IMG/VR virus record: IMGVR_UViG_3300042889_001072
Location: 1-24,143 of that record
Length of the DNA stretch: 24,143 bases
Reading direction: 5' to 3' (one strand)
Source of the DNA: a virus
Shown here: positions 4,229 through 19,826 of the stretch, piece after piece
Numbering within the stretch: the stretch's first letter is position 1
How the letters are laid out: each line of letters opens with the position of its first letter
Position numbers and translations under genes: made by a program
Notes under the pieces: model-generated
Seen by the model: the letters and a program-made list of their open reading frames with translations, nothing else
Database searches by the model: none
Told to the model about the DNA's origin: nothing

Positions 4229-4834
4229 TTAACGTGGTATACTAGGAGAAACAATATAAATTAGTTCAGACATACCTAATTTAGTTTTGATTTTTATATG
4301 TGATGAATGTGTTTCCACAGTTCTATATGAAATGTTTAATAGTTTTGCTATCTTTTTATGGCAGAATCCTTGTACCAATAATCCAAGAACTTCTTGTTCC
4401 TTTGGTGATAATAGATTTAATAATTCTGTAGCATTAGCAGTTTCAATTAGATGCCTTTTATTGACAATATCTAATAACATACCCTCTTGTAATCTAGAAG
4501 GCAATACCGTATCAATATCAGAATAATCTAGGAAATCGTAAGCACCTAGTTTGAATGCATTAGATGTAACTTTTGTATCGGCATACTCAGATACAAATAT
4601 GAACGGTGAAGTAACGGAACGTATCTTTTCCTTTAAGGATACATTGAATGAGTTTAACAAGTCCATATTTACTATGGTACAAGAGTTCCTAGTTTTGTCG
4701 TACTTGTTAAAATATTCAATTCCAGATGTAAAACTCTTTAAGGCATATCCTAATGAATCTGCCATTGAATTTATTTTATCTTTAATTCTTTCATTATCTG
4801 CAATGAGATAAACTTTCGGTGGTTCTAATATCAT
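4229..4834 (-). CDS. FixJ/LuxR-family response regulator with degenerate receiver
   Basis: A 201-residue protein with two domains. Residues about 7-120 look like a receiver domain (KVYLIADNERI at the start, PFIFVSEYAD, and AFKLGAYDFLDYSD near the end). Residues about 142-195 are a clear LuxR-type helix-turn-helix (LSPKEQEVLGLLVQGFCHKK, then IAKLLNISYRTVETH). The residue expected to be the phosphorylated Asp appears to be Asn56 (TIVNMD), the acidic pair is reduced (AD), and the conserved Lys after DFL is missing. It is therefore probably a phosphorylation-independent DNA-binding regulator of phage or host promoters. AGGGAA precedes the ATG; a hairpin follows the stop. Confidence 0.85.
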   Translation of the reverse strand: MILEPPKVYLIADNERIKDKINSMADSLGYALKSFTSGIEYFNKYDKTRNSCTIVNMDLLNSFNVSLKEKIRSVTSPFIFVSEYADTKVTSNAFKLGAYDFLDYSDIDTVLPSRLQEGMLLDIVNKRHLIETANATELLNLLSPKEQEVLGLLVQGFCHKKIAKLLNISYRTVETHSSHIKIKTKLGMSELIYIVSPSIPR

Positions 4835-5261: not shown

Positions 5262-6066
5262 AGTAATGTATTTTATCCTCATTTATATTGTTTAACGCCT
5301 TGTTTATATTATCCTCACCTTCGTAAAATAACCACCCTACATTTTTTCCGTTTTTGGGAGATATACCCTTATTGACATAATTAATAAATCCTGGTCCTTC
5401 AGATAATCCTAACTCATGTAATCTTTCGTTACGTTTACCTAATGTATAATAACACTCACCTGTAGGCGATAGAAATAACCAATATTTTTGTCCATAAGAA
5501 TTCTTGTTTAATCTTAAAGACTCTGCTCTTTTTTGTATAGTTAAATCGCTTTGTTTTTTACCTAAATTAGCATCTCGTAACTTTTCTCTAGTTTCGGCAG
5601 TTACTTCATGCCCTAGTTTACTTTTAGATAATTTATTCCGCATTGTAACGCTTCGCATTTTACCTTTCCAATTAGGAGGAATTGATTTAGGTATTTCGCC
5701 AAGTTCTAATCTTCTTTTCTTTGTATCTTTCATTTTTTGTATAGATTCTGGAGTATCACAAAATCTGGTTCCTCCATTATGTTTGTTTAACCATTCAGGA
5801 TGTTTTGCGGCATCTATTCTAGTCAAAAATCTGGTTTCCCAATATAATGCTTCTATTTTAGATATAAATGTTTTTCGAATTTGGACTGAAAAGGAATCTA
5901 TACCATATTCTTCTATAAGATCGGATATTGTTTTGGAGGAAGTAAAATAGGTTGTCCAAAGTTGATCTGGATGGGCTACTTCTTTTTCGGTATATCTAAC
6001 GCCATAATATCTTTGTCCTGTTGGGATAAAGGTAATACAATAGGCAAAAGGTATATAAATATTCAT
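5254..6066 (-). CDS. GIY-YIG homing endonuclease A
   Basis: A free-standing homing endonuclease of 270 residues. The N-terminal GIY-YIG nuclease domain is recognisable (YCITFIPTGQRYYGVRY, residues 9-25), with a helical continuation to about residue 90. Residues about 130-180 carry NUMOD3-type DNA-binding repeats (GKMRSVTMRNKLSKSKLG, then REKLRDANLGKKQ). The C-terminus is a further DNA-binding module. Such enzymes cut unoccupied alleles and spread their own gene by recombination. It overlaps the dCMP deaminase start and is preceded by a late-type promoter and a structured leader resembling that of endonuclease B. Confidence 0.88.
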   Translation of the reverse strand: MNIYIPFAYCITFIPTGQRYYGVRYTEKEVAHPDQLWTTYFTSSKTISDLIEEYGIDSFSVQIRKTFISKIEALYWETRFLTRIDAAKHPEWLNKHNGGTRFCDTPESIQKMKDTKKRRLELGEIPKSIPPNWKGKMRSVTMRNKLSKSKLGHEVTAETREKLRDANLGKKQSDLTIQKRAESLRLNKNSYGQKYWLFLSPTGECYYTLGKRNERLHELGLSEGPGFINYVNKGISPKNGKNVGWLFYEGEDNINKALNNINEDKIHYYE

Positions 6067-6092
6067 GCTGATACTCCTAGTAAGTTATTAGA

Positions 6093-6134
6093 ATAGGTAG
6101 ATGCTTCCAACATCGTGACCTATAACTATTTATA
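6093..6134 (-). promoter_or_regulatory. Late promoter plus hairpin leader of endonuclease A
   Basis: On the minus strand TATAAATA (6134-6127) is followed by a two-part hairpin. The outer stem is ATAGGT / ACCTAT (6123-6118 with 6098-6093), with an internal bulge CAC opposite T. The inner stem is GATG / CATC around a 7-base loop TTGGAAG. TCTAAT follows the outer stem directly. The same order of parts occurs before endonuclease B with different stem bases, which suggests a conserved RNA structure. Confidence 0.6.
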
Positions 6135-6164
6135 TAAACTAGAAACTCGCTGTAATATATTCGC

Positions 6165-6377
6165 CTAGTGTAAGGTTGTGTTTTCCCCCCGAACCTCTTC
6201 GGGCATCTTTGCAACAAATTGTTTCACAGCTACTTCAGCAATTATATTAGCAAAGTTCTCAAGGAGTTCATCTAAGTCTTCATCATCAGGAACATCCATT
6301 GTATGGTCATCATTAACAATAAACCCTGATGCCTCTGCAAATTCTTCCAACCAATCGTAATCTTTTTCTTCACTCAT
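6165..6377 (-). CDS. Hypothetical acidic protein, 70 aa
   Basis: Strongly acidic (MSEEKDYDWLEEFAEASGF, then DDEDLDELLENF). The ATG overlaps the TGA of the upstream gene as ATGA. Near the 3' end the coding sequence contains a perfect CCCGAA / TTCGGG inverted repeat. Small acidic phage proteins often bind host factors, but nothing specific can be claimed here. Confidence 0.65.
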   Translation of the reverse strand: MSEEKDYDWLEEFAEASGFIVNDDHTMDVPDDEDLDELLENFANIIAEVAVKQFVAKMPEEVRGENTTLH

Positions 6378-6631
6378 ATTTTATATTTCCACTCTTTGAT
6401 TGAAACTTGCAGAAAGTTATCTGGATGCCATCTGGTCATTATAAAGTGCATTCTAGTTTCATAACATTCTTGCATTATAGGATCTTTCATCTTCTTAAAT
6501 GCTTCTCTCAGTTCACTTAATGTTCTATTGGTAATATTAATACTAGGAAATGGATAAGAATGTGTAACTCTAAAATTATCATCTGTTTCGGAATCTCTTA
6601 TTAAAACATCAACATAAGGTATTAACTTCAT
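6374..6631 (-). CDS. Hypothetical protein, 85 aa
   Basis: A complete ORF coupled on both sides by ATGA overlaps. It has an N-terminal beta-rich part (MKLIPYVDVLIRDSET), a helix LSELREAFKKMKDPIM and a C-terminal RWHPDNFLQVSIKEW. No domain recognised. It belongs to the run of tightly overlapped small genes on the minus strand from about 9850 down to 6165. Confidence 0.65.
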   Translation of the reverse strand: MKLIPYVDVLIRDSETDDNFRVTHSYPFPSINITNRTLSELREAFKKMKDPIMQECYETRMHFIMTRWHPDNFLQVSIKEWKYKI

Positions 6632-6897
6632 TTCAAATCATCCTCAGCAAAATCTTCATCAACATCTGCAATGAATAATTCAATAATACTTAATGCTTCT
6701 AGGATATCATCATTATCTGCTAATGGATATAATGACCATAGTTTGTTTTGACCAAAGTCCTTTAGTTCCTCATAGGTAAAATCTTTGCTATCAGAAACGT
6801 GCCACAAGGATAATACTTGTTCCTCTTTCTTTGCACCCTCTGAACTGCTATTATAGAACGAATACCAGTTTGACGTTGACCATCTTGAATATGACAT
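6628..6897 (-). CDS. Hypothetical protein, 89 aa
   Basis: The start is set at the ATG at 6897, with GAGG about ten bases upstream; a GTG at 6903 overlaps the previous gene and has no proper site. The protein has an aromatic Ser-rich N-terminus (MSYSRWSTSNWYSFYNSSSE) and an acidic C-terminus (FIADVDEDFAEDDL). The TGA overlaps the next ATG. Function unknown. Confidence 0.6.
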   Translation of the reverse strand: MSYSRWSTSNWYSFYNSSSEGAKKEEQVLSLWHVSDSKDFTYEELKDFGQNKLWSLYPLADNDDILEALSIIELFIADVDEDFAEDDLK

Positions 6898-6899
6898 TT

Positions 6900-7046
6900 T
6901 CACTTCACCTCGTATTTAACTCTTTGAAATACTGTTAATAAGTTTATCATTGCATATTTTGGACTTGCAATTCCAACAAGTATAATTGCTAATCCAAATA
7001 ATATGATAAAGATTCGTTCTAAGAAAAACTTAATAATCATATTCAT
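6900..7046 (-). CDS. Small membrane protein, 48 aa
   Basis: Starts at the ATG at 7046 with AAGG eight bases upstream. It encodes one transmembrane helix (IFIILFGLAIILVGIA) flanked by a charged N-terminus (MNMIIKFFLER) and a basic tail (FQRVKYEVK). It overlaps the upstream gene by 17 bases and ends just before the next ATG, so it fills an otherwise empty gap exactly. Probably an inner-membrane micropeptide. Confidence 0.6.
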   Translation of the reverse strand: MNMIIKFFLERIFIILFGLAIILVGIASPKYAMINLLTVFQRVKYEVK

Positions 7047-7197
7047 AATTTGCACCTTCAATCCTAAGATTAACTACTTCAATAAACTCCTTTAATCTTG
7101 CTATATGATAACTGGTGCTGTTGGAATCTATTTTCAAAGAGATTTGATTTAGTAAATCAATATACACTTTCTTTTCTTCAGCTGTCATTTCATTCAT
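7030..7197 (-). CDS. Hypothetical helical protein, 55 aa
   Basis: The start is placed at the ATG at 7197 (MNEMTAEEKKVYIDLLNQIS) because AGAGGA lies seven bases upstream. An upstream TTG in the same frame falls inside the previous gene and is unlikely. The protein is amphipathic and helical (SYHIARLKEFIEVVNLRI). The start overlaps the upstream stop as ATGA. No family recognised. Confidence 0.6.
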   Translation of the reverse strand: MNEMTAEEKKVYIDLLNQISLKIDSNSTSYHIARLKEFIEVVNLRIEGANYEYDY

Positions 7198-7370
7198 AAA
7201 CCCATCCTCTGAAAACCTTCTTCCTCTGCTGCCCAAGCCTTGTTAGATCGCTCACGATCAAGTTGGCTTGTCAATTCTTCGATATACTTATCCCTAATCT
7301 CTATGATCATTTTAGCTGCTTCTAATCGGTCTTTTATTGTATATTCTTCATTGTCTAAAAATTCATTCAT
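7194..7370 (-). CDS. Hypothetical coiled-coil protein, 58 aa
   Basis: An ORF bounded by ATGA overlaps at both ends. It reads MNEFLDNEEYTIKDRLEAA followed by a long charged helix (IIEIRDKYIEELTSQLDRER), so it is probably a short coiled coil. Its fit between neighbours and its codon use support it as a real gene. Function unknown. Confidence 0.6.
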   Translation of the reverse strand: MNEFLDNEEYTIKDRLEAAKMIIEIRDKYIEELTSQLDRERSNKAWAAEEEGFQRMGL

Positions 7371-7870
7371 AATTCACCAAATTGTTTAATAGTTTCTTCC
7401 CAAGAGGTATGCCATATTGCAGGACTCTTTTTATCTCTCCATTCAATAATAGTGCTTAATGTATCATCAATCAATAAACTATCTGGTCTAGCATATAGTT
7501 GTTTCAATTGTTTTCCTGGAACAAATACAGCAGGGTAATCAATCTTGTATTCCTTCAACCATATCTCTTTTTGCCTAGATACTTCTACAAGGTATTTCTC
7601 TTGTGCAGTAGAGGATAATAACTTTATTTCATAGTCATCTTCAATGCTTCTTAAGAAATGGATTGCTTCATCAAAATCTGGCATCGGTTCAAGTGTAGCA
7701 AAATGACCATCCATAATGAATTCATCAAATCTTCTTTTGTATTCCTTCTTTTCTTTACCCTTACTAGGATAATCTATTTCAGGACATTCCTTAAACATAG
7801 ATATGAATTGCTTTCTAAAATCACATAGAACGCCATCCATATCCACGTAAATTGTTTTTAACATAATCAT
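7367..7870 (-). CDS. HAD-family 5'(3')-nucleotidase-like hydrolase
   Basis: A 167-residue protein with the HAD signature DMDGVLCDF (nucleophile Asp10, general acid Asp12) at the N-terminus, an SST motif (IKLLSSTAQ) in the second position and LLIDDT near the C-terminus for the Mg-binding acidic pair. Size and the DMDGVL(C/A)DF form fit the deoxyribonucleotidase (NT5C-like) branch, which removes phosphate from nucleoside monophosphates. In a phage with dCMP deaminase, TS and DHFR it may adjust dNMP pools. Other small-phosphate substrates remain possible. ATGA overlaps link it to both neighbours. Confidence 0.8.
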   Translation of the reverse strand: MIMLKTIYVDMDGVLCDFRKQFISMFKECPEIDYPSKGKEKKEYKRRFDEFIMDGHFATLEPMPDFDEAIHFLRSIEDDYEIKLLSSTAQEKYLVEVSRQKEIWLKEYKIDYPAVFVPGKQLKQLYARPDSLLIDDTLSTIIEWRDKKSPAIWHTSWEETIKQFGEL

Positions 7871-8082
7871 TGACCCCCAAGTCTTAGGAAAGGTCCAATC
7901 TTACCTGAACCTGAGAAAAAATCCATTGAGTCGGAAGATTCATAAGAATTTTCAGTTGGAAGTTCTAGGTCAACCCAACTACAATAACTGCTGTATCCTG
8001 ATGAATCTTCAGAGAGAACATCAATAGTAGTTTCTGGTGGAAGTGTTTGAAGATAAGTGATAAGTTCTGCTATAGTAGTCAT
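7867..8082 (-). CDS. Hypothetical protein, 71 aa
   Basis: Starts MTTIAELITYLQTLPPETTI, a helix-strand opening common in small phage proteins, followed by a Ser/Tyr/acidic-rich stretch (EDSSGYSSYCSWVDLELP) and a Gly-rich end. It is the first gene after a strong sigma70-like promoter, and its TGA overlaps the HAD gene's ATG. No function assigned. Confidence 0.65.
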   Translation of the reverse strand: MTTIAELITYLQTLPPETTIDVLSEDSSGYSSYCSWVDLELPTENSYESSDSMDFFSGSGKIGPFLRLGGQ

Positions 8083-8113
8083 TTTAATTCCTCAATAATT
8101 TGATTTATAAGTT

Positions 8114-8141
8114 ATTATACTATATCTGTAGGAGAAGTCAA
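8114..8141 (-). promoter_or_regulatory. Sigma70-like promoter
   Basis: Minus strand: TTGACT (8141-8136), 16-base spacer, TATAAT (8119-8114), about 30 bases before the 71-aa gene. The bases before the -10 (GATATAG) recur at the 10287-10314 promoter. It overlaps the end of the upstream membrane-protein gene. Confidence 0.8.
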
Positions 8142-8374
8142 GGTTTATTTTGTTGTTTCTTAAAATCTCTGTATGACCATTTGATAGGTAACACAATACA
8201 ATAGTAAACTGCACCAATCACGATAGTTGATAACACATAAATTGCTAACCATCTATCATATGGATTAGGAAGAAACACTACGGAAAAGCAAGCAACACAG
8301 TGAAACATTAAAAACACATAATAATAGTTAAAATTCTTAAACATCCACTTCACAAAATCTATTTTATCTGCCAT
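8138..8374 (-). CDS. Small membrane protein with two TM helices, 78 aa
   Basis: AAGGATA precedes the ATG. Two hydrophobic helices are visible: YYYVFLMFHCVACFSVVFL (about residues 17-35) and WLAIYVLSTIVIGAVYYCIV (about 42-61). A basic C-terminal tail (KWSYRDFKKQQNK) suggests a cytoplasmic end. It overlaps the cupin gene's stop by 11 bases. Function unknown; holin-like or superinfection roles would be speculation. Confidence 0.65.
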   Translation of the reverse strand: MADKIDFVKWMFKNFNYYYVFLMFHCVACFSVVFLPNPYDRWLAIYVLSTIVIGAVYYCIVLPIKWSYRDFKKQQNKP

Positions 8375-8780
8375 TTTTATCCTTAGTTGAAAAAAATCTG
8401 ATAGCCATTATGGGTTCTATTGCATTAAAATGATGGACAATACCAGCAGGAATCACTATAAAATCCCCAACATTCATATGAAGCTCTAGATTGATATCAT
8501 CAAACTTAAAATAGAATCTACCAGTACCCTTAACAATCATCCTACCTTCATTATCATTATGAGTATGTGGTTCTCTAGTAGTTAATGCAGACATTGTTTG
8601 AAATATGTCATAGTCTACAAAATCATATTTGTTTAGCATATCAAAAATGAATGAATCCATATCTTGAATTTCTGTTTTGTTGTAGATTATGTCATATTTT
8701 AACAATTCTAGTTTGACCAATAATTCATTGATTACACATTGTTGAAGAACTTTATTTTCATACTTATATAGAGTAGCCAT
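8364..8780 (-). CDS. Acireductone dioxygenase-like cupin
   Basis: A 138-residue cupin starting at ATG 8780 (MATLYKYENK). It resembles acireductone dioxygenase (ARD), which oxidises the acireductone intermediate of the methionine salvage pathway. Candidate metal ligands are His72 and His74 (EPHTHNDNEGR), Glu78 and His116 (PAGIVHHF). Their spacing (2, 4, 38) equals that I recall for Klebsiella ARD (His96, His98, Glu102, His140). VGDFIVIPAG and AIRFF are further ARD-like segments. At 138 residues it is shorter than the usual 180 or so, mainly at the N-terminus. It would act on methylthioribose-derived metabolites; a different cupin activity is possible. Confidence 0.75.
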   Translation of the reverse strand: MATLYKYENKVLQQCVINELLVKLELLKYDIIYNKTEIQDMDSFIFDMLNKYDFVDYDIFQTMSALTTREPHTHNDNEGRMIVKGTGRFYFKFDDINLELHMNVGDFIVIPAGIVHHFNAIEPIMAIRFFSTKDKNGR

Positions 8781-8959
8781 TAACAATACCCATAAAGGTA
8801 TTTCTTTCTAGAGTACCAATAGGTTTTTAACGCTACCAGCACAAAAACACCCATTACAAACATAACCACAAATTCTCCAGTCATAAACAATGTAACAAAA
8901 AAAACAATTGATATAGATAAAACCATTATATCTGTTACTGTTACTAAAACTTTCTTCAT
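8780..8959 (-). CDS. Small membrane protein with two TM helices, 59 aa
   Basis: The ATG at 8959 overlaps the previous gene's TGA (ATGA), and the TAA at 8782-8780 overlaps the cupin's ATG (TAATG). It encodes two hydrophobic helices: IMVLSISIVFFVTLFM, then VVMFVMGVFVLVALK. The C-terminus is aromatic and basic (YWYSRKKYLYGYC). The double overlap is good evidence of a real gene. Function unknown. Confidence 0.65.
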   Translation of the reverse strand: MKKVLVTVTDIMVLSISIVFFVTLFMTGEFVVMFVMGVFVLVALKTYWYSRKKYLYGYC

Positions 8960-9078
8960 TTCGTTTCCTCTAGACTAATACACTTTGCAATTTTTATTTT
9001 CTTGTAATTTCCAAGATCTGTTTTCTGAACCAATGCCACTTCACATTCTTCAGAATTTTGATATACTTCAGTATTCAT
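8956..9078 (-). CDS. Hypothetical 40-aa protein
   Basis: A short ORF running MNTEVYQNSEECEVALVQ to an end at ISLEETK, mixed alpha/beta. Its ATG overlaps the end of the GC-richer gene upstream and its TGA overlaps the next ATG. No function can be suggested. Confidence 0.5.
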   Translation of the reverse strand: MNTEVYQNSEECEVALVQKTDLGNYKKIKIAKCISLEETK

Positions 9079-9634
9079 CAAGAAAGCACTCCATTGACTG
9101 CATGTACTCATACTCCTTCTCTAAGTCACGGTATATCTCTTTCATATACTCACGGCATTGCCACTCAATATCCGCTTCAGCATCTATAATTAGCCGCTCA
9201 TAGTCCTCGCCCTCTTCATCATCTAGCTCAGGTAGTATGTTCAAGTCCCAAGACCCTAGATGTACTGTGTTGTGGTGTGAGTAGTTGTTAGATAGTCTTG
9301 TAAGTTCCAGATCGTAGTATTCACAAGCCGCACCTCGATGGTCGAAAGGTATTACAGCCATATACAACTTAACATGCTCTTGTTTCAGGTCAGGGTGCGC
9401 CTCAAGAAACTCTCTCAGGTTTATTGACCCAGTAAAGCAAGCCCCATCACCTTGTGAGCCAAAGCCTGAGAAGTGCATGCTGTCTGTGGCTGTGTATATA
9501 CCCAGACCCTCTAACTTCTCTGCCCAATACTCCTGTGTGCTCTCCCACCAGTAGTAATCCCCTGATTGGGCGTACTCTTGATGCCTTTTGAACGCTTGTT
9601 CTTTTGCTTCGTTTGATAGTTCTTTATATTGCAT
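9068..9634 (-). CDS. Phage protein with SQGDGACF motif, 188 aa
   Basis: The start is the ATG at 9634 (MQYKELSNEAKEQAFKRHQE), with AGGAGA about seven bases upstream; an upstream GTG in the same frame lies inside the previous gene. A central FSGFGSQGDGACFTGSI matches a motif I recall from uncharacterised phage proteins. The N-terminus is helical with YYWWESTQEYW; the C-terminus is a long acidic helix ending in ECFLDEY. Base composition (about 45-50% GC by counting sample lines) and codon use differ from the roughly 25-38% GC neighbours, suggesting recent acquisition. Function unknown. Confidence 0.7.
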   Translation of the reverse strand: MQYKELSNEAKEQAFKRHQEYAQSGDYYWWESTQEYWAEKLEGLGIYTATDSMHFSGFGSQGDGACFTGSINLREFLEAHPDLKQEHVKLYMAVIPFDHRGAACEYYDLELTRLSNNYSHHNTVHLGSWDLNILPELDDEEGEDYERLIIDAEADIEWQCREYMKEIYRDLEKEYEYMQSMECFLDEY

Positions 9635-9848
9635 GACTAATTCTCCTAGTGCCCGCTCCAACACATTCAAGAGTACAAGCTGTTTCAGGCAAACCAAGTT
9701 GCTCTCTGAGTCGTACTATGCACTCCTGCTCAGTTTCGTTTCTAAGTGCTAAAGGTTCTGCTCCTGTTCTACCATCTGATACTCTAAAGTTTAACACCCT
9801 ATTATTAATGTAATATACGAGGTGCATTTGTTCTGTAATCTTTCTCAT
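9624..9848 (-). CDS. Hypothetical protein, 74 aa
   Basis: It lies in the same GC-richer island as the gene it overlaps by 11 bases. It has a beta-rich N-terminal part (MHLVYYINNRVLNFRVS) and a helix with arginine-rich LREQLGLPE, ending in a small CTLECVGAGTRR segment. Both genes probably arrived together. No family recognised. Confidence 0.6.
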   Translation of the reverse strand: MRKITEQMHLVYYINNRVLNFRVSDGRTGAEPLALRNETEQECIVRLREQLGLPETACTLECVGAGTRRISHAI

Positions 9849-10030
9849 GTCTGTATTCCTATTAAGGTTGTTGGTGCTAAGTTAGGTTGCTCTAACTTAG
9901 CTATCTGGGTGTAGTATCAGATACTACGCATACCATTTGTTTAGGGACTTAAATTCCTTTACTAACTGAGGATACTTATCCTCAAGTAGGCTACACAGAA
10001 GTTCAAACATTATCAACAATAATAGAAACA
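9849..10030. ncRNA. Intergenic stretch with three perfect hairpins
   Basis: Three strong inverted repeats occur within 110 bases. 9876-9901: 10-bp stem GCTAAGTTAG / CTAACTTAGC with a 6-base loop. 9911-9927: 7-bp stem GTAGTAT / ATACTAC. 9967-9984: 7-8 bp stem TGAGGATA / TATCCTCA. None is followed by a clear U tract on either strand. On the minus strand they form the 3' region of the small membrane-protein transcript or the leader of the 74-aa gene. A structured RNA is possible. The strand is undecided. Confidence 0.35.
9924..10010 (-). CDS. Possible 28-aa peptide
   Basis: The ATG at 10010 opens a 28-codon frame (MFELLCSLLEDKYPQLVKEF, then KSLNKWYA) ending at TAG. It is amphipathic and plausible as a helix, but there is no Shine-Dalgarno sequence and the DNA also forms two hairpins, so coding is uncertain. 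Confidence 0.25.
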   Translation of the reverse strand: MFELLCSLLEDKYPQLVKEFKSLNKWYA

Positions 10031-10189
10031 TTAGATGTTCCTCGCATAAAGACCAAAGTAAAAAGACGTAAATCCTAATGCAAACCAAACAGCAGGTTGA
10101 ACTCCTGAGTCAAATTGATTTGCTTCAACATATAAGATTGAACCAATCATCATTAATGCACCAATAACCAAACGAATTAAACCTTTCAT
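10031..10189 (-). CDS. Small membrane protein, 52 aa
   Basis: The ATG at 10189 opens a 52-codon frame. An N-terminal hydrophobic helix (LIRLVIGALMMIGSILYV) is followed by a short polar loop (EANQFDSG) and a second helix (AVWFALGFTSFYFGLYA). Similar MKGLIRL-type two-helix peptides occur in other phages. A sigma70-like promoter at 10287-10314 points at it, leaving a leader of roughly 90 bases that contains the two tandem hairpins at 10239-10268. Shine-Dalgarno is weak (GGGG about ten bases upstream). Confidence 0.6.
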   Translation of the reverse strand: MKGLIRLVIGALMMIGSILYVEANQFDSGVQPAVWFALGFTSFYFGLYARNI

Positions 10190-10214
10190 TTTTAAACCCC
10201 GAATTTTAAATTTG

Positions 10215-10222
10215 TATAAATA
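10215..10222 (+). promoter_or_regulatory. T4-type late promoter core (plus strand)
   Basis: TATAAATA, within a 12-base string TTTGTATAAATA that is shared exactly with the late promoter of endonuclease B. If it acts like T4 late promoters, transcription would start near 10228, just before three AUGGAA repeats and the tandem hairpins. No plus-strand protein gene follows for over 1 kb, so its product would be a non-coding or antisense RNA. Confidence 0.45.
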
Positions 10223-10228
10223 CTATTG

Positions 10229-10268
10229 ATGGAAAGTTGAACATGGAAGTTCGGGACATGGAAGTCCC
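10229..10268 (+). ncRNA. Tandem CsrA/RsmA-binding hairpins (putative RNA)
   Basis: Two adjacent hairpins carry the same loop ATGGAA. 10239-10252 has stem GAAC / GTTC; 10253-10268 has stem GGGAC / GTCCC. Each contains ACATGGAAGT, which fits the CsrA/RsmE consensus ACANGGANGU with GGA in the hexaloop. A third ATGGAA (10229-10234) lies just upstream without a clear stem. The plus-strand late promoter core sits directly before it. The RNA could titrate host CsrA late in infection. On the minus strand the same DNA forms two leader hairpins for the 52-aa gene. Confidence 0.5.
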
Positions 10269-10286
10269 ACCCCCTATGTTTCAGAT

Positions 10287-10314
10287 ATTATACTATATCT
10301 ACAGAAGAAGTAAA
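10287..10314 (-). promoter_or_regulatory. Sigma70-like promoter
   Basis: Minus strand: TTTACT (10314-10309), 16-base spacer, TATAAT (10292-10287). It is almost the same as the 8114-8141 promoter (shared GATATAGTATAATA and a similar spacer), so these look like copies of one early-promoter type. It faces the 52-aa membrane protein. Confidence 0.7.
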
Positions 10315-10317
10315 GCA

Positions 10318-10389
10318 TTATTTTAATGTGATTGGCAATAATATTAACAATGTTAGGTTGATAAAAATTAGTGCCATCATTATAATCAT
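10318..10389 (-). CDS. Possible 23-aa hydrophobic peptide
   Basis: The ATG at 10389 overlaps the previous TGA (ATGA). The frame encodes a single hydrophobic helix (MIIMMALIFINLTLLILLPI) and ends at TAA. The overlap pattern matches real genes nearby, but the size makes it tentative. Confidence 0.4.
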   Translation of the reverse strand: MIIMMALIFINLTLLILLPITLK

Positions 10390-10550
10390 CTATCTGCAAG
10401 TCTCTTTAAAATATCTTTAACCTGTTCATCGGTCTGCAACATAGTATGAAACAGTTCGGTTGAAATTGCAATATATTCTTCTTGCTCTTCAAATGTTAAT
10501 AGATCCTGTTTTTGGATTATTGCTAGTTCTAGGTATCTTTTGATGTTCAT
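10386..10550 (-). CDS. Hypothetical helical protein, 54 aa
   Basis: A frame from ATG 10550 that overlaps the stop of the 83-aa gene (ATGA) and is itself overlapped by the next ATG. The protein is helical and acidic (MNIKRYLELAIIQKQDLLTF; DEQVKDILKRLADR). No family recognised; the gene fills the gap exactly. Confidence 0.55.
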   Translation of the reverse strand: MNIKRYLELAIIQKQDLLTFEEQEEYIAISTELFHTMLQTDEQVKDILKRLADR

Positions 10551-10798
10551 TGTTCATCCTCTAATAATGTGTAACAAGGATGTAGTTTGGGCAACCCCAA
10601 AACAACATTATAGTTTTTGTATTTCAGTGATTCATTTAGTTCCATTGAACGAACTTCACACTCATATTTACCACCTCGCCAATCTCTTTCAAGTTTGGCT
10701 TGTTTGATTGCAGTCTCTTCATTGTCAAATGCACCGACTACATAACTATGTGATTCCCTATCACCGAAACGATAGGCTGTAACTACATAAATTAACAT
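10547..10798 (-). CDS. Hypothetical protein, 83 aa
   Basis: The start is set at ATG 10798 (MLIYVVTAYRFGDRESHSYV) because GGAGA lies four bases upstream. The beta-strand opening, followed by NEETAIKQAKLERDWRGGKY and YECEVRSMEL, suggests a small mixed alpha/beta fold of a kind common in phage accessory genes. It lies just downstream of DHFR, probably in the same transcript. Confidence 0.65.
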   Translation of the reverse strand: MLIYVVTAYRFGDRESHSYVVGAFDNEETAIKQAKLERDWRGGKYECEVRSMELNESLKYKNYNVVLGLPKLHPCYTLLEDEQ

Positions 10799-10820
10799 TG
10801 ATTCTCCAGAATTGTAAGGT

Positions 10821-11309
10821 TTATTTCGCATATTCCCAAGGTTTCCATTTTACCACAGTAAATTCATTATACTCTTTTTCTTCTACTATGTGAAACTTGT
10901 AACCATTTCTGCGATTCATACAAGGTAGATAAACATCACCTTCCGCTGGAAAGTTTAGTGTTGAAATGATTGTCATATCTGCATATGGCATAAACAATTT
11001 GTAAATTTCTGCTCCACCGCAAACCATATATCTCTTCTCTGGATTCTGTTCATATTCAAACAAGAATTGATCCATTGAGAATGTTTCAAACCCTTTCAAG
11101 GTATAGTTCTTATCTCTAGATAATACAATAGCATCCCTTCCAGGTAGTTTACCTACTTGTTCTGCAGTTGTTCTTCCCATTATAAGAGTATTACCCATTG
11201 TTTCTGCTTTGAAGAATTTCAATTCATCAGAACAATACCAAGGAAGAGAGTTTATACTAGAATTGCCTATCACCCCATTAGATGCTACTGCTGCTATTAA
11301 TGTAATCAT
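10821..11309 (-). CDS. folA: Dihydrofolate reductase
   Basis: A 162-residue DHFR of normal length. It reduces dihydrofolate to tetrahydrofolate with NADPH and recycles the dihydrofolate made by thymidylate synthase. Visible motifs: IAAVASNGVIGNSS with LPWYCSDELKFFK (substrate site and Met20-loop region), MGRTTAEQVGKLPGR (NADPH-binding arm) and VCGGAEIYKLFMPYAD (cofactor and core strand). GGTGA precedes the ATG and a sigma70-like promoter lies 30-60 bases upstream. With dCMP deaminase and thyA in the window it completes a phage dTMP route. T4 names its enzyme frd. Confidence 0.95.
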   Translation of the reverse strand: MITLIAAVASNGVIGNSSINSLPWYCSDELKFFKAETMGNTLIMGRTTAEQVGKLPGRDAIVLSRDKNYTLKGFETFSMDQFLFEYEQNPEKRYMVCGGAEIYKLFMPYADMTIISTLNFPAEGDVYLPCMNRRNGYKFHIVEEKEYNEFTVVKWKPWEYAK

Positions 11310-11340
11310 ATTTCACCGATTTATTGAATGTTTATTATAT

Positions 11341-11369
11341 ATTATACTATATTATGACTCTACCAACAA
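11341..11369 (-). promoter_or_regulatory. Sigma70-like promoter of DHFR
   Basis: Minus strand: TTGTTG (11369-11364), 17-base spacer, TATAAT (11346-11341), with the recurring ATATAGTATAATA around the -10. The AT-rich bases may also hold a divergent plus-strand promoter (TATACT) for the LPW paralogue cluster. Confidence 0.65.
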
Positions 11370-11376
11370 CTTAAAT

Positions 11377-11404
11377 TTAACTCAACAAAAAGGAATACTA
11401 AAAT
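11377..11404 (+). repeat. Repeated leader of LPW paralogues, copy 1
   Basis: The leader before paralogue 1 (AACAAAAAGGAATACTAAAA plus about ten bases upstream) matches the leader of paralogue 2 at 11763-11789 with about three differences. It includes AAGGA as the Shine-Dalgarno sequence. It shows that the unit of duplication included the translation start region. Confidence 0.7.
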
Positions 11405-11750
11405 GACAATAACATATACTTGGACTATTACTGGTCTTGAATGTGCAGATCCTGATAGCGATGTTGATTGTGATACAATTAAAGAAGCTACTTGGACTTT
11501 AACTGGAAACGATGGTACTAACACAAGCTCTATTACTGGAAAAACTTCATTAAATATAGTTATGAGCCCAGAAGAAGGGCAAACCCATTCAGATGTGTTT
11601 GCTCTAGTAACTGAAGCAGAAATTATAACCGCAGTACAGACTGTAATGGGCACAGAAAATATTAGTAATATGGAAACAAATATCGCTAATAAACTTACTG
11701 AACTTACTTTACCAGCTTATGTTATCCAAACACTCCCTTGGGTAGTATAA
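11403..11750 (+). CDS. LPW-tail paralogue 1
   Basis: A 115-residue protein. It begins MTITYTWTITGLEC and ends TLPWVV. The order is: an N-terminal strand with Tyr-Thr-Trp, a second strand (EATWTLTGNDG), an insertion strand, then an ALVTEAEIITAVQTVMG helix and a Pro-Trp tail. Marine T4-like phages carry related proteins (which I recall as DUF7936) with the same TYTW start and LPW end; their function is unknown. It is the first of three tandem copies, opposite in strand to all neighbours except endonuclease B. Confidence 0.75.
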   Translation: MTITYTWTITGLECADPDSDVDCDTIKEATWTLTGNDGTNTSSITGKTSLNIVMSPEEGQTHSDVFALVTEAEIITAVQTVMGTENISNMETNIANKLTELTLPAYVIQTLPWVV

Positions 11751-11753
11751 ATC
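11746..11753 (+). promoter_or_regulatory. Late-promoter-like TATAAATC overlapping a stop codon
   Basis: TATAAATC begins inside the final Val codons of paralogue 1 and contains its TAA. It lies 42 bases before the ATG of paralogue 2. One base differs from the T4 late core. Confidence 0.35.
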
Positions 11754-11787
11754 TCTATATTTTAACTTAACAAAAAGGAACACTAAA

Positions 11788-12147
11788 ATGACAACATATG
11801 TATGGAAAGTAGATTCACTTGAATGTACAGCTAATCCTGGCTTCTCTTGTACTATAATCAAATCAGCACCTTGGACATTAACTGGTGATGATGGAACTAA
11901 TACAACTTTCATTCAAGGTAATGCACCAATAAACATGACCATGGTCGAAGAAGAGGGTCATGCTGAAGGCGATAGATTTGCAGCACTAACTGAAGCTGAA
12001 GTAATAACTGCTATACAAACCCAGTTAGGAACTGCTATAGTAAATGAATTAGTGGCTCATATTGATAATGAACTTTATGTAAAAACTTTACAAACACCAC
12101 CAGAACTACCTAAAATAATAGTACCACCTTTGCCTTGGGTGGTATAA
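11788..12147 (+). CDS. LPW-tail paralogue 2
   Basis: 119 residues, MTTYVWKVDSLEC to LPWVV. Shared segments with copies 1 and 3: WTLTGDDGTNT, ALTEAEVITAIQTQLG and the tail. It has a Pro-rich insertion before the tail (LQTPPELPKIIVPP) that makes it the longest. Two cysteines near the N-terminus are at positions similar to those in the other copies (one additional Cys in the 'FSC' segment). The leader is nearly identical to that of copy 1, so duplication of 1 and 2 was recent or is kept by gene conversion. Confidence 0.75.
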   Translation: MTTYVWKVDSLECTANPGFSCTIIKSAPWTLTGDDGTNTTFIQGNAPINMTMVEEEGHAEGDRFAALTEAEVITAIQTQLGTAIVNELVAHIDNELYVKTLQTPPELPKIIVPPLPWVV

Positions 12148-12150
12148 ATA
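12143..12150 (+). promoter_or_regulatory. T4-type late promoter core overlapping a stop codon
   Basis: An exact TATAAATA that contains the TAA of paralogue 2 and lies 32 bases before the ATG of paralogue 3. A start near 12156 would give a leader of about 25 bases with AAGGA. Confidence 0.5.
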
Positions 12151-12181
12151 TACATATTAATATAATATAAGGAATAAACTA

Positions 12182-12529
12182 ATGGCAATAACATATACTT
12201 GGTTAATAACATCAATTGAATGCAACACACCTGATGCTGATGCAGACTGTGATATAATTACATCTGCAAGTTGGAGATTGATTGGAACTGATGGTGATTA
12301 TAGTAGTTTTTCTTTTGGAACTTCTCCATTAAATATAGTTCTAGAAGTAACTCCTGGAACTCTAGAATTAGAAGCATATAATGCTTTAACAGAAGCTGAA
12401 ATGATAACTGCTGTTCAAACTGCTTTAGGTGAAGAACAAATAACATCACTGGAAGCAGAAATAGCTGAACGAATCCAACAACAAGTTGCTCCAACTACTA
12501 TTTCTCCACCTTTACCTTGGGTAGTTTAA
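12182..12529 (+). CDS. LPW-tail paralogue 3
   Basis: 115 residues, MAITYTWLITSIEC to LPWVV. Shared elements are SASWRLIGTDG, ALTEAEMITAVQTALG and the Pro-rich PPLPWVV end. It is the most divergent of the three in the central strands. Its TAA lies directly against the stop of the displaced thyA tail on the other strand, so it marks the left edge of the thyA region. The three-copy cluster may supply a decoration or adaptor protein in variants, which is inference only. Confidence 0.75.
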   Translation: MAITYTWLITSIECNTPDADADCDIITSASWRLIGTDGDYSSFSFGTSPLNIVLEVTPGTLELEAYNALTEAEMITAVQTALGEEQITSLEAEIAERIQQQVAPTTISPPLPWVV

Positions 12530-12703
12530 TTATATTGCAATCGGTGCTTTAATAGTTGGGCGATAATTGTATTTTTGTAAGTCATAAGATCCAATATGGA
12601 AATCATCAATTGAAGGATACTTACGATCAATGACCAATTTGGGCAACTTGTATTCATATAAATCTCTACTTAATAATTCGTTTGCTTGTTCAATATGATT
12701 CTT
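12530..12703 (-). pseudogene. Displaced 3' end of a second thymidylate synthase gene
   Basis: Minus-strand translation from 12703 gives 57 in-frame codons, beginning KNHIEQANELLSRDL, continuing LPKLVIDRKYPSIDDF, and ending IKAPIAI at TAA 12532-12530. This is the canonical C-terminus of thymidylate synthase (E. coli ends IKAPVAI). It matches residues 269-325 of the intact ThyA here, also exactly 57 residues, at about 32 of 57 positions by eye. It has no start codon or N-terminal part, and upstream of codon 1 the sequence turns into a perfect inverted repeat. It is best read as the original thyA tail left behind when endonuclease B and a replacement tail were inserted. Confidence 0.9.
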
Positions 12704-12726
12704 GTATAGATGTTATACAAGAATCA
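12696..12726. repeat. Perfect 13-bp inverted repeat at the thyA-fragment boundary
   Basis: TGATTCTTGTATA pairs perfectly with TATACAAGAATCA across GATGT. One arm includes the Lys-Asn-His codons that begin the thyA remnant; the other lies outside the thyA homology. It could be a bidirectional terminator for the LPW cluster, though there is no U tract, or a scar of break repair at the insertion point. Confidence 0.8.
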
Positions 12727-12747
12727 CATTAGTGAGTTTTCAATTTG

Positions 12748-12793
12748 TATAAATAGTAATAGGCGTTAGTCACGGTGGTCAAGACCTACTAAC
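12748..12793 (+). promoter_or_regulatory. Late promoter plus hairpin leader of endonuclease B
   Basis: TATAAATA (12748-12755) is followed by an outer stem GTTAGT (12765-12770) / ACTAAC (12788-12793), an internal bulge CAC opposite T, an inner stem GGT / ACC and a 7-base loop GGTCAAG. TCTAAT comes directly after the outer stem, as at endonuclease A. The stems differ in sequence but keep pairing between the two loci. Confidence 0.6.
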
Positions 12794-12827
12794 TCTAATC
12801 ATTCTACTATTAATTACAGGAACTAAT

Positions 12828-13724
12828 ATGACCAGCAACATTATATATAATAGTGGTATTTATGCCATAGTAAATAAAAAATCAGGTCGTTCTTATATTG
12901 GATCGTCTATAAATATAGAAAAACGATGGAAATCCCACTTAAGAACCTTAAGAAAAAACACACACCACAATATATTTCTACAAAGAGCATTCAACAAATA
13001 TGGAGAAATTATTTTTGGATTCTCATACCTAGGAATAATGATAACACCAACTCAAGAAGAATTATTTGAGTCAGAACAATCCCACATACATAAATGTCCA
13101 CATAAACTATATAATTTAGGTAGTGTTGGTGGCGGAAATAACCTTACTAATCATCCAAATAAAGATGATATTAGGCAAAGAATCATCAACACCAATCGTA
13201 ATAATAATGCTCAATTATCAACAGAAGAGCTCTCTGAAAAATATGGTCGTTGTGGTTCAGAAAACGGCAATTATAGGGGTGGAATTGGGTTCAATAGTTT
13301 TCATTATTGTTCAATTTGTAATATATCAGTTATATCCGATTCTGCCAAAGTATGCACGAATTGTCGGGACAGAAATGGTGTCAATAATCCTTTCTATGGT
13401 AAAACTCACTCTAAAGAAACTCTTGAAAAATTAAGAATCTCAAATATAGGAAGAACTAAATCTCAATATGAAATAGGTTCTATATCTGGGGAAAATTCTA
13501 GTAAATTTAAAGGGTATTATCATACACCGTGGGGAATATTTCCAGCATCTAATCAAGCAAAATCTGCCCATTCATATATGTCAGTTGTAACTATAACTAG
13601 ATGGTGTGAATATCCAGATAACGATATTGTTAGATTAGGAGCATCAAAATACCTGCAAGAGATAGGTCCTTCTGTTATAGGAAAGACCTATCGTGAACTA
13701 GGATTTTCATTTACTCCAAAATAA
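12828..13724 (+). CDS. GIY-YIG homing endonuclease B (I-TevI-like)
   Basis: A 298-residue homing endonuclease. The GIY-YIG nuclease domain is at the N-terminus (GIYAIVNKKSGRSYIGSSIN, residues 10-29), followed by EKRWKSH with the conserved Arg and His and a later Glu region (ELFESEQ). A zinc-finger-like CSIC...CTNC (Cys161, 164, 176, 179) separates it from a NUMOD3 DNA-binding segment (YGKTHSKETLEKLRISNIG), a layout like phage T4 I-TevI. It lies tail-to-tail with thyA with two bases between the stops, and on its other side is the displaced thyA tail. The likely target is therefore thyA near the YKNH codons. Confidence 0.9.
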   Translation: MTSNIIYNSGIYAIVNKKSGRSYIGSSINIEKRWKSHLRTLRKNTHHNIFLQRAFNKYGEIIFGFSYLGIMITPTQEELFESEQSHIHKCPHKLYNLGSVGGGNNLTNHPNKDDIRQRIINTNRNNNAQLSTEELSEKYGRCGSENGNYRGGIGFNSFHYCSICNISVISDSAKVCTNCRDRNGVNNPFYGKTHSKETLEKLRISNIGRTKSQYEIGSISGENSSKFKGYYHTPWGIFPASNQAKSAHSYMSVVTITRWCEYPDNDIVRLGASKYLQEIGPSVIGKTYRELGFSFTPK

Positions 13725-13726
13725 TA

Positions 13727-14704
13727 TCACACAGATATTGGTGCCTCTATTTTAGGGTGGCTTTTATAATCAACAACATTAAATGATGATAATGTGAAGT
13801 CATCAATACAATGATATTTCTTATCAATTTCTAGTTGACATAATGGATATAAACTTAAATCCCTAGATAACAATTCCTCTGTTTGTTCAATATGGTTTTT
13901 ATAGATATGAGCATCACCAATAGATATGTGTAAATTATCGGGTACCATATCAACAACATTAGCAATCATATGTGTCAATAATGCATATGAAGCGATATTG
14001 AACGGAGTTCCGAGGAAAAAATCCTGAGACCTGACATATAGATGACAACTCAAAGCATATTTCGGAGTTTTCATATCATCCATAATTTTATGAAATTCTT
14101 CTTCATAATATTCTGATGGTTGAATATCTGTTGGGCAATATTTGACTCTTTCAAAAAATGATAACTTTCTTACACCAAACTGAAAGAACGCATGACAAGG
14201 AGCTAATGCCATTCTACTATTCTTTACATTCTGTTGTGGTGATACTCCTTCATCTGGCAAATCAGCAACATTCCAAGCAGATACAATATGTCTACGACTA
14301 AAAGGTCTTTCTATTAATCCTTCAATAAGATTATCTATCTGGTCGGCTTCATCTTCACCCTCAGACCACCATTTTCTCCACTGGTATCCATATATTGGAC
14401 CAAGGTCTCCATCTTCATCAGCCCATTCTTCCCAGATGGTTGGCTTATCATTACCATTCATTCTTCTTAATTCTTCATTATCAGTAGAACCAGATAAGAA
14501 CCAAAGTAACTCATTAGCAACTAATTTGAATGGAGTAAACTTTCCTGACAGTAATGGAAATCCTTTCTTTAGGTCAAACTCAAGATGTTTACCAAATAAT
14601 GATAATGTACCTGTGCCAGTTCTATCATCTGAATCGTTACCATCTATTAGGATTTCTTCTAAAAGTCGGTAATACTGATCCATAGGTCTTTCTATATCGT
14701 TCAA
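13727..14704 (-). CDS. thyA: Thymidylate synthase (intact)
   Basis: Converts dUMP to dTMP with methylene-tetrahydrofolate. 325 residues, longer than the 264 of E. coli because of an insertion at about 180-215. Catalytic Cys170 is in APCHAFFQF; the dUMP-binding region RSQDFFLGTPFNIASY (225-240) keeps Asn236, which favours dUMP over dCMP and argues against a dCMP hydroxymethylase. RTGTG (28-32) and IGDAHIYKNHIEQ (262-274) are intact. The last 57 residues (from Lys269) diverge from the canonical tail, ending IEAPISV with YKSHP in place of the usual YDPHP. That segment may have come with endonuclease B. The ATG overlaps the upstream stop (ATGA). Confidence 0.97.
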   Translation of the reverse strand: MNDIERPMDQYYRLLEEILIDGNDSDDRTGTGTLSLFGKHLEFDLKKGFPLLSGKFTPFKLVANELLWFLSGSTDNEELRRMNGNDKPTIWEEWADEDGDLGPIYGYQWRKWWSEGEDEADQIDNLIEGLIERPFSRRHIVSAWNVADLPDEGVSPQQNVKNSRMALAPCHAFFQFGVRKLSFFERVKYCPTDIQPSEYYEEEFHKIMDDMKTPKYALSCHLYVRSQDFFLGTPFNIASYALLTHMIANVVDMVPDNLHISIGDAHIYKNHIEQTEELLSRDLSLYPLCQLEIDKKYHCIDDFTLSSFNVVDYKSHPKIEAPISV

Positions 14705-15111
14705 AGGATACCACCAAAAGCATTTATTGTATTGTATAATATAAATACGCCATTCAATACTACCGAAAATATGAAAGTATCATGTTTCAAATCCGTAAAT
14801 TTAGATTTTGATTGTAGTATCTTGATAATTTCATCTAGGTTATAGATTGTATTATCTTTACTGCTTACAAATCCCTGTAATGAAATATTTTGATTATTCA
14901 TACTATCAAGTAAACCTTGGTATTTAATATGAGATTCCTCAGATTCTTTTTTCATACGGATAATTTCCGTATTCCTTGCTTGAATCATATCAAGTCTGGA
15001 GGCAGCAAGTTCTTCTAACAGTGCTCTTTCTAATTCAAATACAGGATATGCAACCCATTCACCTTTTTCAGACTTATCCATACCAAAGAAACTTCTGTTG
15101 TATCTGTCCAT
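14701..15111 (-). CDS. Tail-anchored coiled-coil protein, paralogue 3
   Basis: 136 residues. N-terminal MDRYNRSFFGMDKSEKGEWV, then a long helix/coiled coil (about residues 25-110) and a C-terminal membrane helix (FIFSVVLNGVFILYNTINAF). The N-terminal RY...G(E/D/Y)W pattern is shared with the next two upstream genes. Phages often carry small RY...GxWVxY proteins, usually without a membrane anchor. The ATG overlaps the upstream stop. Function unknown; a membrane-surface scaffold or an effector is possible. Confidence 0.65.
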   Translation of the reverse strand: MDRYNRSFFGMDKSEKGEWVAYPVFELERALLEELAASRLDMIQARNTEIIRMKKESEESHIKYQGLLDSMNNQNISLQGFVSSKDNTIYNLDEIIKILQSKSKFTDLKHDTFIFSVVLNGVFILYNTINAFGGIL

Positions 15112-15509
15112 TATATCATTCCTATTCTTTCAAACACAAAGAAGGCAATTGCACCAAAGTTAAATACTGTCGACATAACTAACAAAGAAAACAATTTGGT
15201 ATTCCAATTTTTAAGATATTCCAAATCATCACCTAGACGTTGAAGTTCTTCAAAATTTTGCATAGATTCACTTTGATGTTCTTTAAGGTCATCTTCTCTC
15301 CATCTATTAACTTTACTAATTAACACATTAAGTTCTTCAATACACTGTTTATGCATTTCAATATCTGCATTACGTTCTTTGATAACATCAAATAATGAAT
15401 TATTATTTCCTTCTAATAAGGTTTCAAAATCTTCATTCTTACACCAATCGCCAGTGTCAGATTTCACCATATTCCCAATACCAACAAACTGTTGCCTATA
15501 CCTTTCCAT
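15111..15509 (-). CDS. Tail-anchored coiled-coil protein, paralogue 2
   Basis: 132 residues. N-terminus MERYRQQFVGIGNMVKSDTG with DW following, a coiled coil through about residues 40-100 (IEMHKQCIEELNVLISKV; NFEELQRLGDDLEYLKN), then a C-terminal membrane helix (LFSLLVMSTVFNFGAIAFFV). It overlaps both neighbours by a single base or a few bases. It has the same layout as the genes on either side, with different coiled-coil length. Confidence 0.65.
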   Translation of the reverse strand: MERYRQQFVGIGNMVKSDTGDWCKNEDFETLLEGNNNSLFDVIKERNADIEMHKQCIEELNVLISKVNRWREDDLKEHQSESMQNFEELQRLGDDLEYLKNWNTKLFSLLVMSTVFNFGAIAFFVFERIGMI

Positions 15510-15760
15510 TACGATAATCCTATAAAAATTAATAATGATATTGCTATAAATGACACAGCAGATAAACCAACAATGATATCGTGCATCTTTTCCAACTTAA
15601 TTTCATCCACAATAGCCAAACTATTTCTGGCTCTCCAAGACTTCTCAACTAACTTATTAGAATCTAATACAGTTTGATTATGATCATCATATGTAACCCA
15701 ATATCCATCCGGTGCTTCTACCATTGGCATGGGCAATCCATCGTGGTTATACCTTTTCAT
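15509..15760 (-). CDS. Tail-anchored protein, paralogue 1
   Basis: 83 residues. N-terminus MKRYNHDGLPMPMVEAPDGY with WVTYDDHNQ, a short helix and a C-terminal membrane helix (IIVGLSAVSFIAISLLIFIG). It is the shortest of the three, with the best match to the RY...DG.WV.YDD motif seen in soluble phage proteins. The coiled-coil spacer is almost absent. Translation is coupled to the gene downstream. Confidence 0.65.
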   Translation of the reverse strand: MKRYNHDGLPMPMVEAPDGYWVTYDDHNQTVLDSNKLVEKSWRARNSLAIVDEIKLEKMHDIIVGLSAVSFIAISLLIFIGLS

Positions 15761-15896
15761 TTTTCATATCCTCATCTAAAGATTTCTTCACTAATTCTTT
15801 TTGTTGCTCAGACATATTGCTCATGTACTGAATTTTTCCCTTCTTATCAATCCAAGCAATAAGCATCTTGGAATGAGGTTTTATATGCGGTTTCAT
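15747..15896 (-). CDS. Hypothetical protein, 49 aa
   Basis: A short frame from ATG 15896 with AGGAG upstream. It encodes MKPHIKPHSKMLIAWIDKKG followed by a charged helix (SEQQKELVKKSLDEDMKN). The frame ends inside the start of paralogue 1, overlapping it by 14 bases. The strong ribosome-binding site and tight packing support it. Confidence 0.6.
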   Translation of the reverse strand: MKPHIKPHSKMLIAWIDKKGKIQYMSNMSEQQKELVKKSLDEDMKNEKV

Positions 15897-15903
15897 TGGT
15901 CTC

Positions 15904-16110
15904 CTAATCTAGGGATTTGAGTTCTGAAAGGTTATAGATCTTGTCTTTGATAAAGACCATTAATCCGATGTTTGTTTTGTAAACAAGGAAATGGTCTTCT
16001 GTAAGATACTTATACACAACTCCACCACCTATTACTGCACCTAGAATAAGTCCACATATAGATGAAATTAACATACATTTGATATCGTTTATTGTTTTTT
16101 GAATAGTCAT
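15904..16110 (-). CDS. Small membrane protein, 68 aa
   Basis: AGGAA lies about eight bases before the ATG. One glycine-rich transmembrane helix (MLISSICGLILGAVIGGGVV) is preceded by MTIQKTINDIKC and followed by a soluble, beta-rich tail (FLVYKTNIGLMVFIKD). It may sit in the inner membrane with the tail outside. Function unknown. Confidence 0.65.
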   Translation of the reverse strand: MTIQKTINDIKCMLISSICGLILGAVIGGGVVYKYLTEDHFLVYKTNIGLMVFIKDKIYNLSELKSLD

Positions 16111-16124
16111 AATATAGTTCCTAT

Positions 16125-16433
16125 TTAATTTAGTATATCGACAAGTATTTTTCTAATTGCTAAGTTTTCTTGCATTGATATGTTTTTATACCTCATATCT
16201 TCTCTTATCTCTTTAACAAAGAAAGTCCTATTAATTTCTACATTCATTTTGTATGTGGCGTTATTGAGTATTTGTCTAGCTCTTTGACCAGTTATATTTT
16301 TAAGTCTTCCAATCTCAGTAGTACCTAGATTGTCAAAGTAGTGGAGAGTAAAAACATTTAGCTGATTATCATTAAGAACGTGTTTAAATTTCTCAATGAT
16401 ATATTTCTTATCCATTCTAGTATCAAGTTTCAT
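16125..16433 (-). CDS. Helix-turn-helix protein, sigma region 4-like
   Basis: 102 residues. The segment around LNDNQLNVFTLHYFDNLGTT, EIGRLKNITGQRARQILNNA resembles the region 4 helix-turn-helix of sigma70-type factors (hydrophobic core, LGTTEIG turn, recognition helix GQRARQIL). No region 2 or 3 is present, so it cannot act as a full sigma factor. It could be a promoter-specific transcription regulator. It has its own sigma70-like promoter directly upstream. An alternative internal ATG would remove six residues. Confidence 0.6.
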   Translation of the reverse strand: MKLDTRMDKKYIIEKFKHVLNDNQLNVFTLHYFDNLGTTEIGRLKNITGQRARQILNNATYKMNVEINRTFFVKEIREDMRYKNISMQENLAIRKILVDILN

Positions 16434-16465
16434 AACGTAGTCTCAGTTTTAGTTAAGTTGTGACT

Positions 16466-16493
16466 ATTATAAATCAATTAATGGCTATGTCAA
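16466..16493 (-). promoter_or_regulatory. Sigma70-like promoter
   Basis: Minus strand: TTGACA (16493-16488), 16-base spacer, TATAAT (16471-16466). The -35 overlaps the last codons of the MESH1-like gene. It faces the HTH gene. Confidence 0.85.
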
Positions 16494-17012: not shown

Positions 17013-17042
17013 AATTTCACCATAATAATTTAAAAAGTTTTT

Positions 17043-17594: not shown

Positions 17595-17626
17595 ATTTCA
17601 CCTTGTGTTGTTGTGTGCATTATATA

Positions 17627-19617: not shown

Positions 19618-19626
19618 GATGATTCC

Positions 19627-19812: not shown

Positions 19813-19826
19813 AATATAATCCCACT

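Follow-up and report, generated by a model that had tools for sequence, protein, structure and literature searches.

Which strand is read, and to what end, at a 196-bp intergenic gap of a T4-like phage where two hairpins touch and share one loop sequence (10215-10268)? On the plus strand the hairpins resemble binding sites of the host regulator CsrA, and on the minus strand the same bases lie just downstream of an early promoter. We analysed this locus within a 24,143-base virus record, referred to here as the window, and compared it with related viral contigs.

Genome setting and the repeated hairpins

Recognisable in the window are DHFR, thymidylate synthase, dCMP deaminase, a ligase and an RNase H-like exonuclease. 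The closest thymidylate synthases of isolated phages were less than 45% identical to that of the window, no similar DNA was found among isolated phages, and no tRNAs were found. The gap holding the hairpins separates genes 10386-10550 and 10031-10189, and every flanking gene (10386-10550, 10547-10831, 10821-11309 (DHFR), 10031-10189 and 9624-9848) lies on the minus strand. Elsewhere, three tandem paralogous genes of ~115 aa each (11403-12529, plus strand), two of which match phrog_7802, sit inside the minus-strand early region, and a response-regulator-like protein with a LuxR-type DNA-binding end (4229-4834, minus strand) adjoins late genes. The sequence elements at the hairpin site are as follows.

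10215..10222, plus: TATAAATA, a late-promoter word facing the plus strand, enriched upstream of genes in related contigs
10229..10234, plus: third ATGGAA, a degenerate copy of a 14-15-nt repeat, without a hairpin
10239..10252, no strand assigned: inverted repeat GAAC-N6-GTTC, folding by itself only when the plus RNA is short; in the minus RNA it supplies the 3' arm of a long hairpin
10241..10250, plus: first ACANGGANGT match (Csr/Rsm-like), from a motif scan
10253..10268, minus: upper hairpin GGGAC-UUCCAU-GUCCC (on plus, GGGAC-AUGGAA-GUCCC), pair probability at least 0.98 on either strand
10256..10265, plus: second ACANGGANGT match (Csr/Rsm-like), from the same kind of scan

The paired hairpins are real as a sequence feature. 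The preliminary description had reported two touching hairpins with the common loop ATGGAA, ACATGGAAGT within both, a third ATGGAA upstream and TATAAATA ahead of all three; each of these was confirmed, with 10239-10252 abutting 10253-10268, ACATGGAAGT at 10241-10250 and 10256-10265, and the remaining two elements at 10229-10234 and 10215-10222. With a stem of at least 4 and a gap of at most 12 as the criterion, tandem hairpins with the same hexaloop occurred once in the window compared to a mean of 0.003 in 300 dinucleotide shuffles (reached in 1/300), and a single further pair with a common loop, unrelated and 5 nt long, turned up in ~390 kb of related contigs. ACANGGANGT had 3 occurrences in the window where 0.47 were expected, a count reached in 1/100 shuffles. 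The three ATGGAA copies form one imperfect tandem repeat with a 14-15-nt unit, so the two Csr-type matches are not independent and count as one event. Among the matches listed, the core (10228-10281) had no match elsewhere in the window, in the related contigs (390 kb) or in viral or genome contigs. Exact and relaxed tandem patterns returned only coding repeats or chance matches among those listed for the viral collection, and none in the genome collection.

The minus-strand early promoter and its predicted leader

The elements read on the minus strand are listed below.

10287..10314, minus: early sigma70-type promoter TTTACT-N16-TATAAT, 10/12 consensus positions, predicted +1 at ~10281-10280
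10240..10280, minus: 5'-terminal stem-loop AACAU(A)GGGGGU-GGGAC-UUCCAU-GUCCC-(GA)-ACUUCC-AUGUU, from the predicted MFE fold
10190..10281, minus: untranslated leader of ~92 nt, from +1 to the start codon of the 52-aa gene; orthologue leaders are short and hairpin-free
10206..10259, minus: possible 17-codon upstream ORF (MSRTSMFNFPSIVFIQI) with AGGGGGUG ahead of it, read from sequence only; its start codon overlaps the hairpin loop
10031..10189, minus: 52-aa small membrane-protein-like gene, served by the hairpin leader, phrog_12621-like (E 9e-4)

The stretch 10276-10330 aligned to early promoters of related viruses, and the minus promoter proved homologous to several of them, in L040, L048 and L066 (E 1e-5 to 1e-2), with 35/40 bases identical in L040 (E ~1e-5). 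Related contigs contain ~100 such intergenic promoter-like sites, mostly 20-50 nt upstream of gene starts. Judged by this homology, the predicted minus promoter at 10314-10287 is an early sigma70-type promoter of the virus group (TTTACT/TTGACA - TATAAT), with shared flanks, and not a chance match.

The first 42 nt from the predicted +1 folded as a single hairpin (nucleotides 2-42) with an MFE of -19.0 kcal/mol (z -3.2), a stability matched by 6/1000 shuffles, while the plus strand of the same DNA gave -14.3 kcal/mol (z -1.8). In the minus lower stem, AACAUAGGGGGU pairs with ACUUCCAUGUU, the 3' arm being supplied by the second repeat copy; two of the lower-stem pairs are G-U pairs available to the minus RNA only, and the plus RNA is 4.7 kcal/mol weaker, a modest strand asymmetry that 6% of shuffles attain. 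For 137 other promoter-like sites in the virus group, the first 45 nt downstream had a median of -0.8 kcal/mol and a most stable value of -13.0 kcal/mol, which marks the leader as an outlier. The modelled transcript therefore carries a stable predicted hairpin at its 5' end, as a 5'-terminal stem-loop leader should, and no intrinsic terminator was found at the hairpin site on either strand. The earlier caveat that the same DNA forms minus leader hairpins under a sigma70-like promoter held for the promoter and failed for the second small hairpin, which is not predicted on the minus strand: the GAAC/GTTC pairing had a probability of 0.001-0.002 in longer minus transcripts. The minus strand is preferred because the neighbouring genes lie on it, the early promoter is homologous to those of relatives and the stable fold starts at the predicted +1. 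A minus-strand leader under the sigma70 promoter is thus the better-supported reading compared to a CsrA function. From the sequence, promoter homology, predicted fold and gene order, all of which were computed, we infer a cis function for the stem-loop, and our best reading, in which we place roughly even confidence, is a cis-acting 5' stem-loop in the leader of an early minus-strand mRNA, where it would influence mRNA stability or translation for the 52-aa gene.

Orthologues of the 52-aa gene in L016-L023 were 71-92% identical and had the same promoter type, with short leaders that carry a 27-aa ORF in place of the hairpins. These orthologues do without the hairpin, so the gene does not depend on it. 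Early promoters followed by long leaders with tandem hairpins were also found in T5-like contigs, whose stretch of DNA in common with this virus lies 235 bp away. In a separate observation, window 9075-10003 (a phrog_5162 gene plus leaders) was 80-92% identical in pieces to the T5-like contigs L056, L057, L059 and L067, a segment common to another phage type within a T4-like genome, with piece breaks at hairpin leaders. These four contigs also contain ~14 copies of a dispersed hairpin repeat, CTAAGTTAG-N6-CTAACTTAG, with one further copy at window 9877-9900. Its 9-bp arms are fixed and its 6-nt loop is variable; two L056 copies lie within open reading frames (4330, 5009), and many copies come after GTAGTATC..GATACTAC downstream of an early promoter.

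The main alternative to the leader reading is that no RNA function has been selected, and that slippage in a rapidly changing intergenic stretch duplicated a near-palindromic unit of 14-15 bp, with the fold and the motif as by-products. In favour are the three imperfect copies at 14-15-nt spacing, and the hairpins are kept in no relative, the orthologous leaders lacking them. However, between the two stems an A-U pair is replaced by G-C in a compensatory change and one G-C pair is added, and the minus stability is not only unusual (z -3.2) but begins exactly at the predicted +1, so that we regard a neutral origin as unlikely, though far from negligible. The 17-codon ORF raises another alternative, a leader-peptide or attenuation device in which ribosomes entering at 10259 open the hairpin and alter expression of the 52-aa gene. 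AGGGGGUG stands at a usable spacing upstream of the hairpin ATG, and a second in-frame ATG lies in the next repeat, but the ribosome site is buried within the stem, no terminator-like site lies downstream, and the search returned no informative homologue of the peptide. We consider such a device improbable.

A late-promoter word and Csr/Rsm-like motifs on the plus strand

The late promoter claimed ahead of the hairpins stood up to comparison, as TATAAATA is a genuine late-promoter word in the virus group: 36/54 of its copies in related contigs were intergenic and 30/54 lay at most 120 nt upstream of a same-strand start, compared to a mean of 12.5/75 within 120 nt of a start for permuted control words. 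In addition, 10203-10227 matched L040 4256-4280 at 24/25 positions, where the sequence serves a GIY-YIG endonuclease gene as its late promoter and overlaps the opposite-strand early promoter of a ribonucleotide-reductase-like gene (both identities judged from translations, not from a family search). The genuine late word and the L040 match together make a plus late RNA from 10215 plausible. This RNA would be antisense, with no gene for 1188 nt other than the ORF listed below, and no plus-strand terminator-like site was found in 6000-20000 of the window.

10243..10326, plus: possible 27-codon ORF (MEVRDMEVPPPMFQILYYIYRRSKALF), a candidate from the bare sequence

Outside the window, this ORF had no match better than E 0.1. 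A resemblance of its product to the start of a GIY-YIG protein (YYIY..RS) was considered and rejected, because relatives share this DNA as an early promoter and a convincing match to an endonuclease was not found. Among the related contigs, L040 shows endonuclease late promoters overlapping opposite-strand early promoters of ribonucleotide-reductase-like neighbours at 2440-2520 and 4213-4292. A conserved nested hairpin (GTTACT-CGCGG..CCC-AGTAAC) lies 3' of GIY-YIG late promoters at window 12748-12800 (plus strand) and in L040, L043, L048, L050 and L066; its outer stem has both-side changes at two pairs across six distinct sequences.

One explanation of the plus-strand elements is that they are the remnant of a lost homing-endonuclease insertion, the late promoter and hairpins deriving from a GIY-YIG-type late leader and possibly still driving the 27-codon ORF. 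The near-identity of 10203-10227 to the L040 endonuclease promoter (24/25) and the nested hairpin 3' of such promoters in seven loci point this way, yet the endonuclease leader sequence and hairpin are missing at 10215-10268, and the ORF crosses the early promoter and lacks a convincing homologue; we give this explanation little credence. The preliminary description had instead proposed a phage small RNA that sequesters CsrA, or a CsrA-controlled antisense RNA. Its observation that the hexaloops fit the Csr/Rsm consensus was exact, with two ACANGGANGT hairpins on the plus strand. A late RNA starting near 10228 from TATAAATA could present two high-affinity CsrA/RsmA hairpins that titrate CsrA, or be a CsrA-bound antisense transcript. 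CsrA SELEX selected ACA, GGA, a six-base loop, short stems and an AC/GU closing pair (PMC7652899), and the plus hairpins agree with these preferences in their hexaloops and short stems (PMC7652899), the ACANGGANGU matches being exact and closed by AC/GU pairs. The promoter word is a true one in the virus group, and a plus RNA that stops at or before 10275 folds into the two hairpins.

The proposed CsrA function fared poorly on several counts. There are only two sites, both from the one tandem repeat. The GAAC/GTTC hairpin is predicted (0.95) only for a plus RNA with its end near 10275; in plus RNAs ending past the minus +1 (~10281) it gives way to a larger stem in which its GG is paired, and its pair probability falls to 0.006-0.03. 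The plus strand carries two ACANGGANGT hairpins plus one unpaired GGA, the first hairpin being paired away in RNAs that extend beyond 10281. No plus-strand terminator-like site that would end a discrete small RNA was found in 6-20 kb, and ACANGGANGT with extended stems was not enriched elsewhere across 390 kb. A search for a CsrA gene found none in 24 related viral contigs, and an Rfam scan of the window gave no match at the gathering score, including to Csr/Rsm RNA families. In Serratia, free RsmA represses CRISPR-Cas, CRISPR-Cas expression rises when RsmA is lost, and less free RsmA leads to more CRISPR-Cas activity (PMC8450108), so that in this host a decoy would benefit the bacterium and be a poor phage strategy; some phages encode RsmA genes themselves, rather than decoys (PMC8450108). 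We therefore consider CsrA titration or binding by a late plus RNA very improbable. The combined case, in which the same DNA of a lytic phage encodes the early 5' stem-loop on one strand and, on the other, a late antisense RNA whose two Csr/Rsm-type hairpins bind or titrate host CsrA, has a slimmer chance still.

Proposed role of the stem-loop and comparison with known systems

In the preferred minus-strand leader reading, host RNA polymerase would start at ~10281 from the sigma70-type promoter (10314-10287), and the first 42 nt would form one stem-loop with a single unpaired 5' nucleotide and the GGGAC/GUCCC hairpin as its cap. An AU-rich linker of ~50 nt would then lead to the start codon of the 52-aa gene. 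The stem-loop would most likely shield this short early mRNA at its 5' end against 5'-end-dependent decay (RppH/RNase E type), a role known for bacterial mRNA in general, and keep GGGGGU, a ribosome-binding-site look-alike, out of use. The Csr/Rsm-like motif would then be the complement of the minus stem-loop, with no need for CsrA, and its resemblance to host CsrA binding sites is probably incidental. If this reading is true, the locus is a further example of a structured early leader, here in a T4-like virus, and serves as a caution that a perfect Csr/Rsm motif may be the shadow of an opposite-strand stem-loop. Were the plus-strand reading true instead, the phage would have a decoy against a global regulator of its host, a novel finding and one open to testing.

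Cassettes of the PeSL type (promoter-early stem-loop) in T4-type phages were reportedly described by Arbiol (2010) and Comeau (2014), both cited in PMC4503421, and their stem-loops are said to be terminators in the latter. The window resembles these cassettes in that a strong early sigma70 promoter adjoins a stem-loop, and the surrounding region is hyper-variable and holds many small genes. Unlike PeSL, the window stem-loop lacks a T run, and its core was not found a second time in the window or in 390 kb; neither a terminator stem-loop nor recurrence in the genome was found for the hairpin site. With T4 late leaders that carry hairpins, such as that of gene e (PMC3014915), the window shares a TATAAATA near a hairpin, but no plus gene lies downstream in the window, in contrast to the gene e leader (PMC3014915), which leaves the hairpin no ribosome site to mask. 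Like the CsrB/CsrC and RsmX/Y/Z decoy RNAs, the plus strand has GGA in hexaloops closed by AC/GU; unlike them, the window has two sites only, one of them unstable, no terminator and a putative plus RNA. In bacterial leaders of the ompA 5' UTR type, 5'-terminal stem-loops protect the mRNA. The window leader is unrelated to these in sequence and its decay role is putative, but it is like them in layout, with a hairpin at most 1 nucleotide from the predicted 5' end, untranslated and followed by an AU-rich linker.
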